Source: Magnetovibrio sp.
GTDB lineage: Bacteria > Pseudomonadota > Alphaproteobacteria > Rhodospirillales > Casp-alpha2
Assembly (NCBI GenBank): GCA_002690705.1
Contig: NZFO01000006.1
Coordinates: 124,001-188,000, forward strand
DNA: 64,000 bases
Direction: 5' to 3'
Shown here: in pieces, positions 1,763 to 37,447 of the stretch
Layout: every line of letters begins with the position of its first letter
Position numbering within the stretch: position 1 is the stretch's first letter
Notes under the pieces: model-generated
Seen by the model: the letters and a program-made list of their open reading frames with translations, nothing else
The model's database searches: none
What the model was told of the DNA's origin: nothing
Position numbers and translations under genes: made by a program

Positions 1763-3166
1763 TTATAAGTGAAGAACACGATCATAAGCATCGAGTGCCG
1801 ACTCATGTAACATTTCAGATAAAGTAGGATGTGGGAAGATAGTATGAATCAGATCTTCCTCTGTAGTTTCGAGGCCTATGGCTACGACGAAGCTTGAGAT
1901 TAACTCTGTTACTTCTGCTCCCACCATATGTGCGCCAAGTAACTCTCCAGTGTTGGCATTGAAAACAGTTTTAATTAAACCGTTTGTTTCACCTAGTGCA
2001 ATTGCTTTGCCATTACCAATAAACGGAAAGCGACCGATCTTCAGCTTATGCCCTGCTTCTATGGCCTCCTCCTCCGTCATGCCAACGCTGGCAATTTGAG
2101 GATGACAAAATGTACACCCCGGTATCCTAGCTTTGTCAATCGGATGCGTATCAAGACCGGCGATGTTTTCAATGCAGATGACGCCCTCATGTTCTGCTTT
2201 ATGCGCTAGCATGGGAGGCCCCGCCACATCGCCAACGGCGTAGACGCCGGGCTCATCGGTACAGCCATAGCCATCTACTACTATACAACCCCGATCAGTC
2301 TTTACTTTGGTTGTATCGAGGCCAATATCCTCAATGTTACCGATAACTCCAACTGCAGAAATCACCCTATCGACTGTGACTTGGCGAGCCTCCCTTTTTC
2401 CATCCTGAATAGTCGCGGTGACGTTACTCGCGGTTTTATTGAGAGCGGTGATTCTTGCATTGGAGATGATTTTAATACCGTTTTTCTCAAATTGTTTTTG
2501 GGCTAAGTCGGCTATTTCGGAATCTACGGCCGTAAGTATCCTTGGCATTACCTCAATGACTGTTACATCTGCGCCCATTGCATTGTAAAAACTGGCAAAC
2601 TCGATACCTATCGCTCCTGACCCAATAACTAATAGAGATTTTGGCATGATGTTCGGCCTTAAAGCTTCGAAATAGGTCCATATCAGCTTACCGTCAGGTT
2701 CTATCCCCGGTAATACGCGCGGTCGTGAACCGGTGGCGATAATAACGTGTTTAGTGGAGAGACCTCTAACAGACCCGCCATCGTTATTTAGAACCTCAAC
2801 TTTGTTCGGGCCATCTAATCTTGCGCGACCATCAAGGACGGTGATTTTATTTTTTTTTAAGAGGTTAGTGACGCCGTTGTTTAGTTGCTTAGAGATGGAG
2901 CGGGATCGATTAATGACTTTATCTAGATCAAAACTAATGTTTTCTGCGGCTAAGCCGAAATCATGGGCATTTTTAATATAGGTCCAGATTTCTGCGGAGC
3001 GCAGCAACGCCTTAGTTGGTATACAACCCCAATTGAGGCAGATTCCACCCAAGTGCTGGCTTTCAACTACACATGTCCTTAAACCTAGTTGAGATGCGCG
3101 AATAGCACTTACGTAGCCGCCCGGACCACCACCAATTATAATTGCGTCGAAATCCATATCGGCCAT
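1763..3166 (-). CDS. lpdA: dihydrolipoyl dehydrogenase (E3)
   Basis: FAD-dependent E3 subunit that reoxidises dihydrolipoyl groups of the pyruvate (and possibly 2-oxoglutarate) dehydrogenase complex using NAD+. Visible are the N-terminal FAD motif GGGPGGY (residues 12-18), the redox disulfide in GGICLNWGCIPTK (C43 and C48), a second Rossmann GSGAIGIEFASF, the FAD-binding GDVAGPPMLAHKA and the C-terminal catalytic HPTLSE. At 467 residues it is full length. A GGAGG ribosome-binding sequence sits about 9 bases before the ATG. It is in the same direction as pdhABC but separated from pdhC by a decayed cupin gene; the E3 ribosome-binding site lies inside the tail of that remnant. Confidence 0.97.
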   Translation of the reverse strand: MADMDFDAIIIGGGPGGYVSAIRASQLGLRTCVVESQHLGGICLNWGCIPTKALLRSAEIWTYIKNAHDFGLAAENISFDLDKVINRSRSISKQLNNGVTNLLKKNKITVLDGRARLDGPNKVEVLNNDGGSVRGLSTKHVIIATGSRPRVLPGIEPDGKLIWTYFEALRPNIMPKSLLVIGSGAIGIEFASFYNAMGADVTVIEVMPRILTAVDSEIADLAQKQFEKNGIKIISNARITALNKTASNVTATIQDGKREARQVTVDRVISAVGVIGNIEDIGLDTTKVKTDRGCIVVDGYGCTDEPGVYAVGDVAGPPMLAHKAEHEGVICIENIAGLDTHPIDKARIPGCTFCHPQIASVGMTEEEAIEAGHKLKIGRFPFIGNGKAIALGETNGLIKTVFNANTGELLGAHMVGAEVTELISSFVVAIGLETTEEDLIHTIFPHPTLSEMLHESALDAYDRVLHL

Positions 3167-3169
3167 AAT

Positions 3170-3529
3170 TTATGTTTCCTCCAGTTGATCACATGTCAAC
3201 TTGCTAACTGGTGTATCACCCGTGTTGATGACCCCATTACGTTCAACTATCGTCCTCCCGTATTGTGTTGGTTGACGGCCTAGGCTCGACACTTTCGGAT
3301 ATTATTTGTAATTTCCCGGGTTTGAGAGTCATTGAATGGGCTCGGAATTTGATAATCATTGCTCTATTAATGACCAAAATAACTCGTTGACCTCTTCATG
3401 CTTGTGCCAACTGAATTCACCTTACATCTTGACTATTTAGATCTCGTAGTTACCAAGATTGGCAATAACTCTTGGGGACCAGTTATCTTTGCAATTTAAT
3501 AAGTTAGTACCTAACTCGGTCTCATCCAT
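3170..3529 (-). pseudogene. decayed cupin-domain protein
   Basis: This stretch carries the remains of a small cupin. An ATG at 3529, preceded by GGAGG, opens a frame reading MDETELGTNLL and then NWSPRVIANLGNYEI. Two in-frame TAA codons follow, where homologues I know have ordinary residues (often K), and then GEFSWHKHEEVNELFW, the cupin metal-binding HxH...E strand. A frameshift near 3361 is needed to continue into MIIKFRAHSMTLKPGK, the next cupin strands. A further shift near 3250 gives IVERNGVINTGD, matching the usual family ending (V/I-x-E-P-x-G-V-x-N-T-G-D), and the frame ends with TAA at 3170. Total length (about 119 codons) fits one-domain cupins. At least two stops and two shifts make a functional product unlikely. 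The reading was done by hand on the minus strand; sequencing error is not excluded but would have to hit several places. Confidence 0.82.
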
Positions 3530-3548
3530 TTCTAGCCTCCAATCAGCC

Positions 3549-4856
3549 CTAAAGCATCAATTGCAGTGGGTCCTCTATGACGACCTTCAGTTCATTTATG
3601 AACTTGGCTGCAACGGAACCATCAATGCAACGGTGGTCTACTGCGAGTGTTACAGTCATCACGGTCGCTACAGCAAGTTTACCACTTTTTATTACGGCGC
3701 GTTCCTCAGCTACTCCGACTGAGAGGATCGCCCCTTGCGGGGGATTAATGATGGAGGTAAAAGCTTTAATTCCGTGCATGCCGAGGTTAGAAATTGTAAA
3801 GGTGCCTCCCTCGAACTGCTCTGGTTTAAGCTTGCCCTTTCGTGCTTTTTTTATGAGTTCATTGGACTCGGCCGCAATAGCTGCTAGGCCCTTACCACCT
3901 GCGTCTTTGATAATTGGTGTGACCAATCCACCCTCTACTGCAACCGCCAAGCTAATATCAAAACGCTTAAAACGTAAAATGGCCTCGTTGGTATATGTGA
4001 CATTGCAATTTGGAACACGAGATAACGCTATAGCTACGGCTTTAATTATTAAATCATTAATAGTGATTTTGTATTGGATGTGGTCTCTGCTGTTTAATTC
4101 CTCTCGGACGCTTGTCAGCGCATCCACGTAGATGTCCGCACTCAAGTTGAAATGCGGAGTATCGCGAGCGGAAGTGGTCAATCGTTCGGCGATGCGTTTG
4201 CGCATGGAAGAATTTTGAAAAACCTCGAATTCTGGCATACTTGAAAGTATTGGGCTTTCGGTGGAGATCGCTTGTGCGGCACCAGATGACACCTGAGTAC
4301 CAACTTGAAACTTACTTTGTGATACACTCGTTGAACTGGAGCTCACGGCTTGTTCTACATCACGTTTAATGATGCGGCCGTGAGGGCCAGATCCCTCCAG
4401 TTTCCCCAAGCTTATGTTATTCTGAACCGCTAAACGTTTGGCCAATGGGCTCGCAAAAACACGGGGGACACTTGTTTTCACAGGGTCGCCATCGACTTTT
4501 GGAACCAGATTGCCGCTGGGCCCTCGTGTGCTTTCTGGGTTCGGTTGGGTTTTATTTGTGGAGAAGGCTCCGAGCGAAAATTCACTTATGCCGCCCAAAA
4601 CAGTGTCATCCTCCCCCTCCTCTAAGAGTAAAGCGATAACTTGGTTAACTGAGACCGATTCTGTGCCATCAGCAATTAGAATTTTACCAAGTGTTCCTTC
4701 ATCAACAGCTTCAATTTCCATTGTCGCCTTATCGGTCTCAATCTCGCAAAGGATGTCTCCGGGGTCGATTCGTTCACCCTCTGATTTGAGCCACTTTGTG
4801 AGCGAACCCTCAGTCATTGTTGGCGAAAGCGCGGGCATTAGGATTTCTATTGGCAT
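3549..4856 (-). CDS. pdhC: pyruvate dehydrogenase E2, dihydrolipoamide acetyltransferase
   Basis: Core acetyltransferase of the pyruvate dehydrogenase complex, passing the acetyl group from lipoyl to CoA. Domains in order: one lipoyl domain (residues 1-78, lipoylated lysine K43 in ETDKATME), an Ala/Pro/Ser-rich linker, a peripheral-subunit-binding domain (about 134-170, FASPLAKRLAVQNNI then GPHGRIIKRDV), a second linker, and the catalytic domain from about residue 210, ending with the active-site DHRCIDGSVAAKF. Length (435 residues) is normal for a single-lipoyl E2. It follows pdhB after 11 bases and so is translated in the same operon. The N-terminal 45 residues closely resemble those of PdhB. 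Confidence 0.96.
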   Translation of the reverse strand: MPIEILMPALSPTMTEGSLTKWLKSEGERIDPGDILCEIETDKATMEIEAVDEGTLGKILIADGTESVSVNQVIALLLEEGEDDTVLGGISEFSLGAFSTNKTQPNPESTRGPSGNLVPKVDGDPVKTSVPRVFASPLAKRLAVQNNISLGKLEGSGPHGRIIKRDVEQAVSSSSTSVSQSKFQVGTQVSSGAAQAISTESPILSSMPEFEVFQNSSMRKRIAERLTTSARDTPHFNLSADIYVDALTSVREELNSRDHIQYKITINDLIIKAVAIALSRVPNCNVTYTNEAILRFKRFDISLAVAVEGGLVTPIIKDAGGKGLAAIAAESNELIKKARKGKLKPEQFEGGTFTISNLGMHGIKAFTSIINPPQGAILSVGVAEERAVIKSGKLAVATVMTVTLAVDHRCIDGSVAAKFINELKVVIEDPLQLML

Positions 4857-7483: not shown

Positions 7484-7852
7484 TTACGCTACATTACGTA
7501 ATTTGGTCTCAGTATGGGTTTTAACGGGTTCATGCCATTGCCAATGGCAGCCCTCGGATGCGATGCAATCATTAAGATCGATAGTATGTGGTATGAGGTC
7601 GCTGGAGGTTTTTTGCCAGGCCTGCATAGCGTGAAAGGTTTTCCAATAAACGATCTTAACCGGGCGGTTACCATTAGCTATGTCATCTGCAAAACCGATA
7701 AAACCGCTAAACAACATTGCTGCTGACAAAGTTGTTGCCAACGCATCAGAAAATTGTCCGGCATTTGTCTCTGGGCTTGGCGCGGTGAAAAGCGCGGTAA
7801 AAAATGGAGGTTTATCGAGATCAACGAAACGAGGCATTGTCAAAAAAACCAA
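7484..7852 (-). CDS. ABM-fold (antibiotic biosynthesis monooxygenase-like) small protein
   Basis: A 122-residue protein, or 117 if translation starts at the internal Met6 (MPRFVDL, position 7837). After an N-terminal strand FFTALFTA it reads GFIGFADD and then VKIVYWKTFHAMQAW. This matches the pattern of small ABM-superfamily dimeric ferredoxin-like proteins (a strand, a GF-G-x segment, then V-x-YW-x-x-x-x-A-x-x-AW). It resembles the protein encoded immediately upstream (7821-8291) and overlaps that gene by up to 32 bases, suggesting tandem paralogues. The two are more degenerate than typical family members and no substrate can be named. Family membership rests on pattern reading only. Confidence 0.55.
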   Translation of the reverse strand: MVFLTMPRFVDLDKPPFFTALFTAPSPETNAGQFSDALATTLSAAMLFSGFIGFADDIANGNRPVKIVYWKTFHAMQAWQKTSSDLIPHTIDLNDCIASEGCHWQWHEPVKTHTETKLRNVA

Positions 7853-8291
7853 CGATAGATGGAATTACATTTGTTAGACGACGCTTGAGCGGTAGCCTGT
7901 TAGTTTGGATCTGAGTGGGCCTTTCAGCAATGAGGTGTTTGCGTCTTTTGTGAGAAATAGGCTCTTTGACCGAAGCTACCTTAATCTTAAAAAGTGAGTC
8001 GATAGGATTGTTTGGAAATGTACTTTTAATTTGTTTAACGCATATTCGATACCATTCTGTGTAAGCTGCCATATCGCTCCAATACACTACGGATAGCCAA
8101 AGCCCACTTTCGTCACGTGTTGTCTCAAGACCCATGAAGCCCATTTGTGCGGGAGCTAAACTCACCATTTCATCAGTTGGTCGCCGCTTGGGAACAGTAA
8201 AGTTATCGACACCAGTGGTATCGTAAAAAATTACAGCGATGAACGGTGGATTAGGAGTCTCTGCAAGAACCCAATTTTGCGCTAAAGACAT
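7821..8291 (-). CDS. ABM-domain protein with basic C-terminal extension
   Basis: A 156-residue protein whose first 115 residues fit the ABM (antibiotic biosynthesis monooxygenase / dimeric alpha-beta barrel) pattern: FIAVIFYDTTG, DEMVSLAPAQMGFMGLET, then LWLSVVYWSDMAAYTEW and KIKVASVKE. The last 40 residues (KRRKHLIAERP onward) are basic and absent from ordinary one-domain members; they may be an extension or a read-through created by a local frameshift. Its ATG overlaps the ftsB stop (position 8291 shared), implying translational coupling with ftsB. The paralogue at 7484-7852 follows. Such proteins act as heme-degrading or quinone monooxygenases in some cases, but nothing here fixes a reaction. 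Confidence 0.68.
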   Translation of the reverse strand: MSLAQNWVLAETPNPPFIAVIFYDTTGVDNFTVPKRRPTDEMVSLAPAQMGFMGLETTRDESGLWLSVVYWSDMAAYTEWYRICVKQIKSTFPNNPIDSLFKIKVASVKEPISHKRRKHLIAERPTQIQTNRLPLKRRLTNVIPSIVGFFDNASFR

Positions 8292-20483: not shown

Positions 20484-20962
20484 CTTGCACAGTCTCCCAT
20501 CGTTTGTGATATCAGCATATATTATTGGGGATATTTTTTTGAGCGTTGCGTTCCGCAAGTCTCTGAGTTCTAACTATACCCCAATCGACACTCCCGCAGT
20601 TTAAGGACTCGTGGGTTACATATCTAGCACGTTTTGACACACCAGTTTTTTAAACGCTCAATTAATTAGGGACGGAAGTTTCCTTTCACTATATTGTCGA
20701 GCTTTTTTGGAAAGTAGATCTTGGTGATCTATCAGGACCCGGGAGGCTAAGAATTTAACGGCCATTGTATACGAGGAGCTCTAAAATCTGCACTCAGAAA
20801 TCATATTTCTTAGGATTTAATCCAAAAAGTAATTAAAATCTGTGATGGTAATGTCGAGGTTAAAATTCTTTCAGAAATGACTAGTAACGACCACCATTCA
20901 GCGACCATTCATGGTAATATAGTCGCAATAACAGGACGGTAAAAATTATACCTACCTCCATA
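20484..20962. other. 479-base intergenic region upstream of dctP
   Basis: This region lies between the parC stop and the dctP start, both on the minus strand. It should hold the dctP promoter; an AT-rich stretch near 20515-20530 is a candidate -10 region, but I could not place a convincing -35. I found no coding pattern, tRNA or transposon ends. A short imperfect direct repeat (CGACCACCATTCA / CGACCATTCA) lies near 20888-20910. Confidence 0.5.
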
Positions 20963-23613: not shown

Positions 23614-24342
23614 CTAGGCCTTTAAGCGGTCCATAAAGCGCGCGCGGGCATCTGGTGTGCGCCCTAACGCGCTAGGGTAAAACACATTTTTATTTAACAT
23701 ATAACCTGTGGTTCTTAACCCTTGGACAATGTCGAAACGAGCTGGCATGCCTCCGCCCGGAAGCAAAAATGCTGGCAACGGTAACATTTTGCTTTCATAT
23801 GGTTTAGCGGCATTGATACTAACTGCTCTCCCGGTTTTTGGAGACACAAAGGCAAGATCTTTTGTAACGCCCGTAGCGGCACACGCTTTTAGGTCTAGGC
23901 CAAACCCAAGTTCCTGTAATAAACCTACTTCCCATTTTACGTAAACTGTCATCCATACTAAATCTTCCTCATGCGCTAAGGCCTTAATGAGCAAACGAAT
24001 ACCCTCAAATATAGCCACATAGTTCTCCCGTTCTGGCAGCGACGCGTCTAAAATAGCGCACGCACTGCATAGAGCTGCAAGTCGCATTGGTTCATGCAGG
24101 ACTTCGGATGTTACAGTGGATTCAAGTTCACAACTGAATGTTCCAAGATGCTCAGGTAATCTTCCATGCCATGTCACGTAAACACAATTGCCGGGTTGAT
24201 ATAGGCCGCGAGCTCGCCGACCAGAACCACCTCTTACCAACCCAAGATGTCGTCCATGACTCCGCGTGAGCAACGTGACGATTGCAGCCGTCTCCCCGTG
24301 CTTGCGTGAAGATAAAACTATTCCCTCGTCGCACCATTTCAT
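23614..24342 (-). CDS. recO: DNA repair protein RecO
   Basis: Recombination mediator of the RecFOR pathway, loading RecA on gapped DNA. The N-terminal OB fold is visible as the family start WCDEGIVLSSRKHGETAAIV with LVRGGSGRR; the helical C-terminal region includes YVKWEVGLLQELGFGLDL and a CAATG segment. At 242 residues it has normal length. It sits between era and parC, the arrangement usual in related genomes, although a 560-base non-coding stretch separates it from era. Confidence 0.93.
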   Translation of the reverse strand: MKWCDEGIVLSSRKHGETAAIVTLLTRSHGRHLGLVRGGSGRRARGLYQPGNCVYVTWHGRLPEHLGTFSCELESTVTSEVLHEPMRLAALCSACAILDASLPERENYVAIFEGIRLLIKALAHEEDLVWMTVYVKWEVGLLQELGFGLDLKACAATGVTKDLAFVSPKTGRAVSINAAKPYESKMLPLPAFLLPGGGMPARFDIVQGLRTTGYMLNKNVFYPSALGRTPDARARFMDRLKA

Positions 24343-24902
24343 AATTGCATTGTAACTTCATTTTCCAAAGTTTGTTCGAAATTGTGACTCCTTCTAAATA
24401 TTTGATTTTTTTTGTACTAAGGTTGCAGCACCGACAGGCAAAATGCCGGAGTTCATTTAATGAGTGATTATTAGAGCCTTAGTTCTATTTTTTAATGTTT
24501 CTTAATAGATGGTTACTGTTTCTTTTAATGTGTCTGTAGTTATATGATTGCGGCTGCTAAGAGAATGATATGGTGCACCGGGGGAAATAATATTTTGCTG
24601 TTATTTGCGTATTAATTTAAGTTGATTTAAAGGCATCAAAGATTAAATCCCGGTTGGGATTTACCACCCACTCGTAAGTCAAGGCAGACAGTTTTAATGG
24701 GGTCTCCATACCAGTGTGCGCCCTTCGTCTATTTCGTGCGGGTACTTTTTAATATGCTTTGATATCGTGGAAGAGCATAAGCGCCAGGGTAAAGAACTGC
24801 ACGGTCGGACTTGTTTAGATTTATTGCATTTTTAAAAAGGTGCGAGGTTGGGTATGAGTGTAACTTTAATAGAACCTGAGAGATAGCCTATCTTCGTCAA
24901 GT
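24343..24902. other. 560-base region between era and recO, no gene recognised
   Basis: No convincing reading frame, tRNA or known RNA family is seen here. There is one tight hairpin, AAATCCC-GGTT-GGGATTT (24645-24662, perfect 7-bp stem with a 4-base loop). era and recO are usually close together in relatives, so the length is unusual; it may hold gene remains decayed past recognition or an unannotated small RNA. Confidence 0.5.
24645..24662. other. perfect 7-bp hairpin in era-recO spacer
   Basis: AAATCCC, GGTT, GGGATTT: a symmetrical stem with a 4-base loop ending in T residues on either strand. It could be a short intrinsic terminator or part of a small RNA. No promoter was identified nearby. 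Confidence 0.35.
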
Positions 24903-34586: not shown

Positions 34587-34952
34587 ATCGATGATCCTCT
34601 CAATCAAATTCTATTTACCCAGGTTGGTTGTCTGCGAAGGTATAGTTGATGTCAATCTAATGGTAAGCATTTAAGCGACGTAGCTGAGTGTTTTGGTCAA
34701 GATAAAACGAAGGCTTAACTCTCTCAAGATCGTTAATAACCATGCCGTATTATTGATTTTTCGGAGAGGCGTAACGTGCACTGAATTATTTTACCTACGC
34801 TTATAGTATCACTGTAGCAGTTTCACAAATTAATAAAAAAAATGAGCATGCCATAGATATTGGCAATACACCTCAAGCTGCAGCACCTCGGTAATGGGGA
34901 TAATAATTTTGATAGCAGTGGGGTTGAAAGTAAGGAGGTATAGAGAAAAATA

Positions 34953-34980
34953 TGGGTGCGTAATTTTCTAATTACGCCCA
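34953..34980. terminator. hairpin in the tpiA-hyi spacer
   Basis: TGGG plus CGTAATT pair with AATTACG plus CCCA, separated by a 2-base bulge on one side and a TTCT loop, giving an 11-bp stem. On the minus strand it lies downstream of the hyi-like gene and is followed by TATTTTTCTC, so it can act as an intrinsic terminator for that gene. Confidence 0.5.
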
Positions 34981-35147
34981 TGCAAGTCAGCAGCGAACTC
35001 ACCAATAGTAGCTTTGGTAAAGCCTATTTGTGATCCAAGAACGATTATTATGGCACTATATTCACTTTTTGCCTTGCTCGGTCTGCCAACCAATCCAATC
35101 ACTTGATTCCCAATTTTGTTAAAAAAAGGTTTTCTAAAAGCGGTCAA
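34968..35147 (-). CDS. possible small protein, unknown
   Basis: A minus-strand frame open for about 70 codons; a TTG at 35147 would give 59 residues. The product would include VIGLVGRPSKAKSEY and GFTKATIGEFAADLHGRN, with no homology that I recognise. It lies 48 bases downstream of the hyi-like gene and its end lies within the hairpin at 34953-34980. There is no convincing ribosome-binding site, and a frame of this length can occur by chance. Confidence 0.2.
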   Translation of the reverse strand: MTAFRKPFFNKIGNQVIGLVGRPSKAKSEYSAIIIVLGSQIGFTKATIGEFAADLHGRN

Positions 35148-35195
35148 GCCGGCATGATCCGACTTTCTACGCGGAGACTATTACTCAGGTACTTA

Positions 35196-36869: not shown

Positions 36870-36994
36870 GGCCGTTCAATCATTTTTGGCCTAACAAAAA
36901 TCTCACCCAGTAAAATATTGTCATAACAAGTTACCTCAGATGAATTCCACTAAATTTCGTGATTCGTAACGGTTTCAAGTTCAGTGGAGGCAGT

Positions 36995-37282
36995 TTAAAC
37001 GATTTTGTATTTAGTAGCATATTGAATTCCCATGATCTTTATGTATTGAGGAAGAAAGGGCACGTTCAGGATAATTAAGTCCTTAAAAAGACCACCTTTG
37101 TGCGTCATGAGCGAAGTCGAGTATCGGTCTGCAATATCATCCCTAGGTATGCGTTTTTGCCGCGGAATAAACTTTTTTCGAGTCTTTAGTTCTTTTATTG
37201 ACGAAAACAGATGAATTATACATTGCAGGTTAAGCGTCGTAATACGATACAATATCAGTCGTTTATCCCTCTTCGATATCAT
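36995..37282 (-). CDS. hypothetical protein, doubtful
   Basis: A 95-codon frame rich in Lys, Arg, Ile and Leu. I recognise no family. It could be a real orphan gene, since the segment PRDDIADRYSTSLMTHKGG reads like protein, but it has no convincing ribosome-binding site and no operon partner, and the region is AT-rich. Confidence 0.25.
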   Translation of the reverse strand: MISKRDKRLILYRITTLNLQCIIHLFSSIKELKTRKKFIPRQKRIPRDDIADRYSTSLMTHKGGLFKDLIILNVPFLPQYIKIMGIQYATKYKIV

Positions 37283-37447
37283 TATTAAATTTGTGGTAGA
37301 TGGAAGGTAGGAGAAGAATTACCCCTCCTGTTAATGCCAATCGAGACATGTTTCAGATTTTCAAACCTTTACATAATGGAAAAAGGTATTTTAGTGAATT
37401 GGAATACACGGGATACATATTCTCCACATACGAAAAGGTCAGCCCAA

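Follow-up and report, generated by a model that had tools for sequence, protein, structure and literature searches.

What occupies the spacer between pdhC and lpdA in the pyruvate dehydrogenase cluster of Magnetovibrio sp.? In the window, which is the whole 64,000-nt stretch of DNA analyzed from this genome (G000), the minus-strand gene order is eno, a divIC-like gene, two ABM-like genes, pdhA, pdhB, pdhC, the spacer, lpdA and lipA, with the neighbors named by reading their translations. The spacer is 382 nt long, from the pdhC stop at 3549 to the lpdA ATG at 3166. The original prediction was that it holds a decayed minus-strand cupin gene, and each of the parts described, a ribosome-binding site, a start, the metal strand, the next strands and the family ending, is present, as are two TAA codons and two frameshifts that can be seen in the sequence (Table 1). 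From the ATG at 3529, the first frame reads MDETELGTNLLNCKDNWSPRVIANLGNYEI, a stop, IVKM, a second stop and GEFSWHKHEEVNELFWSLIEQ. The metal strand, GEFSWHKHEEVNELFW, lies in this frame and MIIKFRAHSMTLKPGK in another; the second-frame stretch is VINRAMIIKFRAHSMTLKPGKLQIISESVEPRPSTNTIR. The first frame then resumes as RTIVERNGVINTGDTPVSKLTCDQLEET, to which the ending ERNGVINTGD belongs, and is closed by a TAA 3 nt ahead of lpdA.

Table 1. Features of the pdhC–lpdA spacer and its flanking genes, in window coordinates
Feature	Position	Strand	Basis or remark
Cupin pseudogene, from a single-domain cupin of ~120 aa	3170..3529	-	Profile alignment; intact orthologue at same site in G001 and G002
Original start codon ATG	3527..3529	-	19 nt past pdhC stop (G001: 24 nt)
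Former cupin ribosome-binding site, GGAGG	3536..3540	-	Direct reading
In-frame TAA	3437..3439	-	At invariant K31, which intact relatives encode as AAA/AAG
In-frame TAA	3422..3424	-	Column of E/Q36 (GAA/GAG/CAG in relatives)
Frameshift 1, net 1-nt deletion	approx. 3370..3380, near 3375	-	Placed by alignment, uncertain by several nt
Frameshift 2, net 1-nt insertion, back to first frame	approx. 3250..3262, near 3257	-	Placed by alignment, uncertain by several nt
Likely lpdA ribosome-binding site (GGAGG), within the remnant's tail	3178..3182	-	Direct reading; GAGAGG at about the same place in several intact relatives
pdhC (E2), upstream neighbor, intact	3549..4856	-	
lpdA (E3), downstream neighbor, intact	1763..3166	-	

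The identity of the remnant is indicated by its closest relatives. A search of sister genomes for an intact copy between pdhC and lpdA, proposed along with the original prediction, was successful: both congeners carry an intact 120-aa cupin at exactly the same site (G001, L007:1429–1791; G002, L015), which strongly supports the view of the spacer as a decayed cupin gene and also supports that of a fairly recent pseudogene. The remnant is orthologous to these genes by position and by sequence, and the genes that adjoin it are intact and syntenic with the sister genomes. The orthologue at L007:1429–1791 matches Cupin_2 (PF07883) with 48.1 bits, where the cut-off is 27.2. A whole-genome profile search of G000 returned only this remnant and no other copy of the subfamily; a compensating paralogue was considered and rejected, as the other Cupin_2 proteins in the genome are distant. 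We conclude, with a probability of roughly 0.94, that the spacer is a pseudogene of a metal-type cupin that was inactivated in the lineage of the window, by lesions that are read from the assembly.

The damage extends beyond the stops and shifts themselves. Each of the two TAA codons is one substitution away from a codon present in relatives. Motif 1, G(X)nHXH(X)4E(X)6G, is complete in the intact orthologue; the remnant keeps the HKH and the E, and the region of the following G is replaced and frameshifted. Motif 2, G(X)5PXG(X)2H, is present in the intact orthologue and lost from the remnant (P78S, G80S and, at a ligand position, H83P), so that the metal site would still be missing if the pieces were rejoined. 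The remnant retains 27 of the 43 invariant residues that can be aligned, compared with 40–47 of 47 in intact relatives. At positions identical in G001, G002 and G007, 47% have changed in the remnant versus 21% in lpdA and 27% in pdhC of the same genome, and 15–27% of these conserved positions have changed in the intact cupins of other relatives. Relaxation is only moderate, with a cupin/lpdA change ratio of 2.2 for the remnant against 1.2–1.9 for intact genes, and changes at codon positions 1, 2 and 3 of the remnant (0.45/0.20/0.66) preserve a third-position excess. With so moderate an excess of change, and with the third position still the one that changes most, the gene probably stayed under selection for much of the branch and died late on it. 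An intact syntenic orthologue, disabling lesions and a relaxed protein constraint of moderate effect, three features by which pseudogenes are recognized, are found at this locus.

The tail of the remnant is a different matter. In several intact relatives the cupin gene ends GAG AGG AT(T/A) stop (GAGAGGAT-TAA/TAG), and because the GAG AGG sits only a few nucleotides before lpdA, the end of the gene doubles as the lpdA ribosome-binding site. The window reads CTG GAG GAA ACA TAA ATT ATG at the cupin end, and where relatives have a clean spacer, the leader is mostly short and rich in purines. The overlap is probably ancestral and may help to keep the last ~20 nt of the remnant. The earlier proposal that the lpdA ribosome-binding site lies in the tail holds, but the accompanying suggestion that it has prevented deletion of the remnant is not well supported, because genera g5, g7, g9 and g14 have a clean pdhC–lpdA spacer of 10–19 nt (10–24 nt with further genera included) and relatives that deleted the cupin kept lpdA; the cupin can evidently be deleted despite the overlap. 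These short spacers also bear on whether a new role has preserved the remnant, with the tail or a 40-aa frame (GTG 3292–3170) being translated and handing ribosomes to lpdA, or with the region serving as an RNA leader. The 40-aa frame does share the old stop, leaving 3 nt to the lpdA ATG in a layout close to that of intact relatives, and contains the lpdA ribosome-binding site; however, so many relatives manage without such a leader that we consider a new role unlikely.

Could the organism instead carry an unbroken gene, with the stops and frameshifts being errors of sequencing or assembly? The genome is assembled into 21 contigs, which would leave room for such errors, but a stretch of 190 nt contains four separate lesions, of two kinds, and neighbors at 50–80% identity to the sisters are open, and errors would not give the replaced invariant and metal-site residues that stand beside the lesions. 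We regard this explanation as very improbable.

The pseudogene reading is also far outside what is expected by chance. The original prediction called for a comparison of the joined fragments with cupin profiles, and when seven intact cupins were built into a profile, the frameshift-aware alignment of the spacer to it reached a score of 199.9, compared with a mean of 27.0 (sd 3.7) and a maximum of 45.4 for 600 dinucleotide shuffles of the spacer; the opposite strand scores 24.7 in the same alignment. A tblastn-type search with the intact protein of a sister recovers the remnant at E 8e-15, with three TAA and two TGA codons inside the match. Pfam finds no match to the separate pieces of the remnant, which are too short, and the family assignment therefore rests on the intact orthologue. 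That the spacer is unrelated non-coding DNA with cupin-like strings, as the missing Pfam matches might suggest, is already refuted by the gap between 199.9 and the shuffle maximum and by the intact orthologue at the same site, leaving it a negligible probability.

The intact gene is by no means restricted to the two congeners. The order pdhC–cupin–lpdA, in the same orientation, is found in G001, G002, G007, G009, G014, G020, G030 and G069 and, further out, in G034, G076, G081 and G114 and in MAGs filed as Kiloniellales, Rhodospirillaceae or unclassified Alphaproteobacteria (L068, L071, L075, L080 and L087). Across the alphaproteobacterial order, intact single-domain cupins recur in this gap (L007:1429–1791, L015, L035, L036, L042, L147 and L169). 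The profile of the pdh-linked cupins matches PDB 3d82, a Cupin 2, conserved barrel domain protein, at E 6e-44. Since many bacteria and archaea have members of the subfamily in other gene contexts, distant groups could have gained the pdh-linked cupin by transfer. A literature search for a cupin in a pdh operon or for the pdhC–cupin–lpdA order found no paper.

Recurrent loss of the cupin within the family is supported by several further cases. Two genomes of another genus, G023 and G044, have a broken cupin at the same site, each with private stops (L024 and L029); between them, changes in the cupin show no third-position excess (0.16/0.09/0.10) and those in lpdA do (0.04/0.01/0.13). In G047 (L040) a single TAA at codon 12 interrupts a gene that is otherwise well conserved. 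The family thus offers a loss series: the gene is intact in G001, has a single stop in G047, carries several lesions in G000, G023 and G044, and is cleanly removed in others. On the LpdA tree, which is a quick one with a weak backbone, absence of a cupin from the slot requires at least 10 changes, gains and losses pooled, 7 of which are forced by well-supported branches. The loss in the window is genuine but fairly ordinary, one of several in the family.

Other spacers are occupied differently. Those of G003 and G016 are equally long and were examined as candidates for a cupin remnant, but were rejected because a different gene lies there: the G003 slot (L023) encodes a DUF6614 protein (141 bits; DUF6614 was tested in G003), and that of G016 (L037) likewise holds a non-cupin gene. 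Yet another small frame is found in the G005 slot (L027). The 145-nt spacer of G017 gives no cupin signal; its last ~35 nt resemble the G044 tail (score 30 versus a shuffle maximum of 25) and fall within the shuffles when compared with G023, and the spacer may be a largely deleted remnant. One tentative proposal, which we think has a minority chance of being right, is that the pdhC–lpdA gap behaves as an accessory-gene slot for a cupin, a DUF6614 protein or another small frame, that it is most commonly occupied by a metal cupin, hitherto undescribed and tied to pyruvate dehydrogenase, such as a small-molecule sensor or a modifier of the complex, and that repeated loss marks a change in how pyruvate dehydrogenase is run.

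The lineage in which the window's copy was lost is strongly AT-shifted and fast-evolving. The LpdA branch of G000 is 0.49 changes per site long versus 0.02 in the two congeners, and G+C at the locus is 45% versus 60–61% in the sisters. The original prediction had likened the loss to that in streamlining marine lineages, but a genome of 3.03 Mb (in 21 contigs) and, in the window, many spacers of 250–600 nt in which no gene can be recognized point against streamlining, although the measure is rough. Coding density is 82% over 344 kb of G000, a figure obtained with a crude gene caller that, by reading of the sequence, misses lepB, trpG and the start of recO, so that the true density is higher. 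Clean deletions of the cupin are found in genomes of ~4 Mb with 63–65% G+C, and cupin loss is therefore no mark of small genomes. An AT-shifted, fast-evolving lineage losing a dispensable gene, through relaxed selection or early reduction, fits as well or better.

Two observations elsewhere in the window may be recorded here. Spacers of several hundred nucleotides without recognizable genes, at 24300–24800, 34608–35195, 20484–20962 and 36900–37400, are possibly older gene remnants. Between divIC and pdhA, the tandem ABM-like frames at 7484–8291 (minus strand) fall below the Pfam cut-off; they were suspected of being broken, which was rejected because both frames are open and have counterparts in the two sister genomes, in the same order and at 50–58% identity.

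In the favored history, the genus ancestor had a small cupin gene of the metal type at the pdhC–lpdA junction, probably co-transcribed with its pyruvate dehydrogenase neighbors and stopping a few nucleotides short of the lpdA start. Nonsense and frameshift mutations then inactivated it in the window's lineage, presumably late on a long, fast, AT-shifting branch. The remnant, apparently no longer expressed, now evolves free of protein constraint, with only its last ~20 nt probably still under selection as an lpdA leader with a ribosome-binding site. The remnant shows that the cupin linked to pyruvate dehydrogenase is dispensable, and is mildly useful in drawing attention to a gene, so far unstudied, that neighbors a central enzyme complex; the loss series makes this cupin testable in the relatives that still have it.

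In its decay, the locus resembles other bacterial pseudogenes that arise by nonsense and frameshift mutation during lineage-specific gene loss, with the same types of lesion, relaxed residues and intact neighbors, and nothing about it is unusual. The intact sister protein is a clear member of the single-domain Cupin_2 cupins, whose solved relatives include PDB 3d82 and 2i45. Compared with the cupins of this family (PF07883), the remnant keeps the HxH and the E of motif 1 but is broken and has lost motif 2. With the alphaproteobacterial pdhC–cupin–lpdA order, the window shares both the place and the orientation of the cupin, but its own gene is dead.
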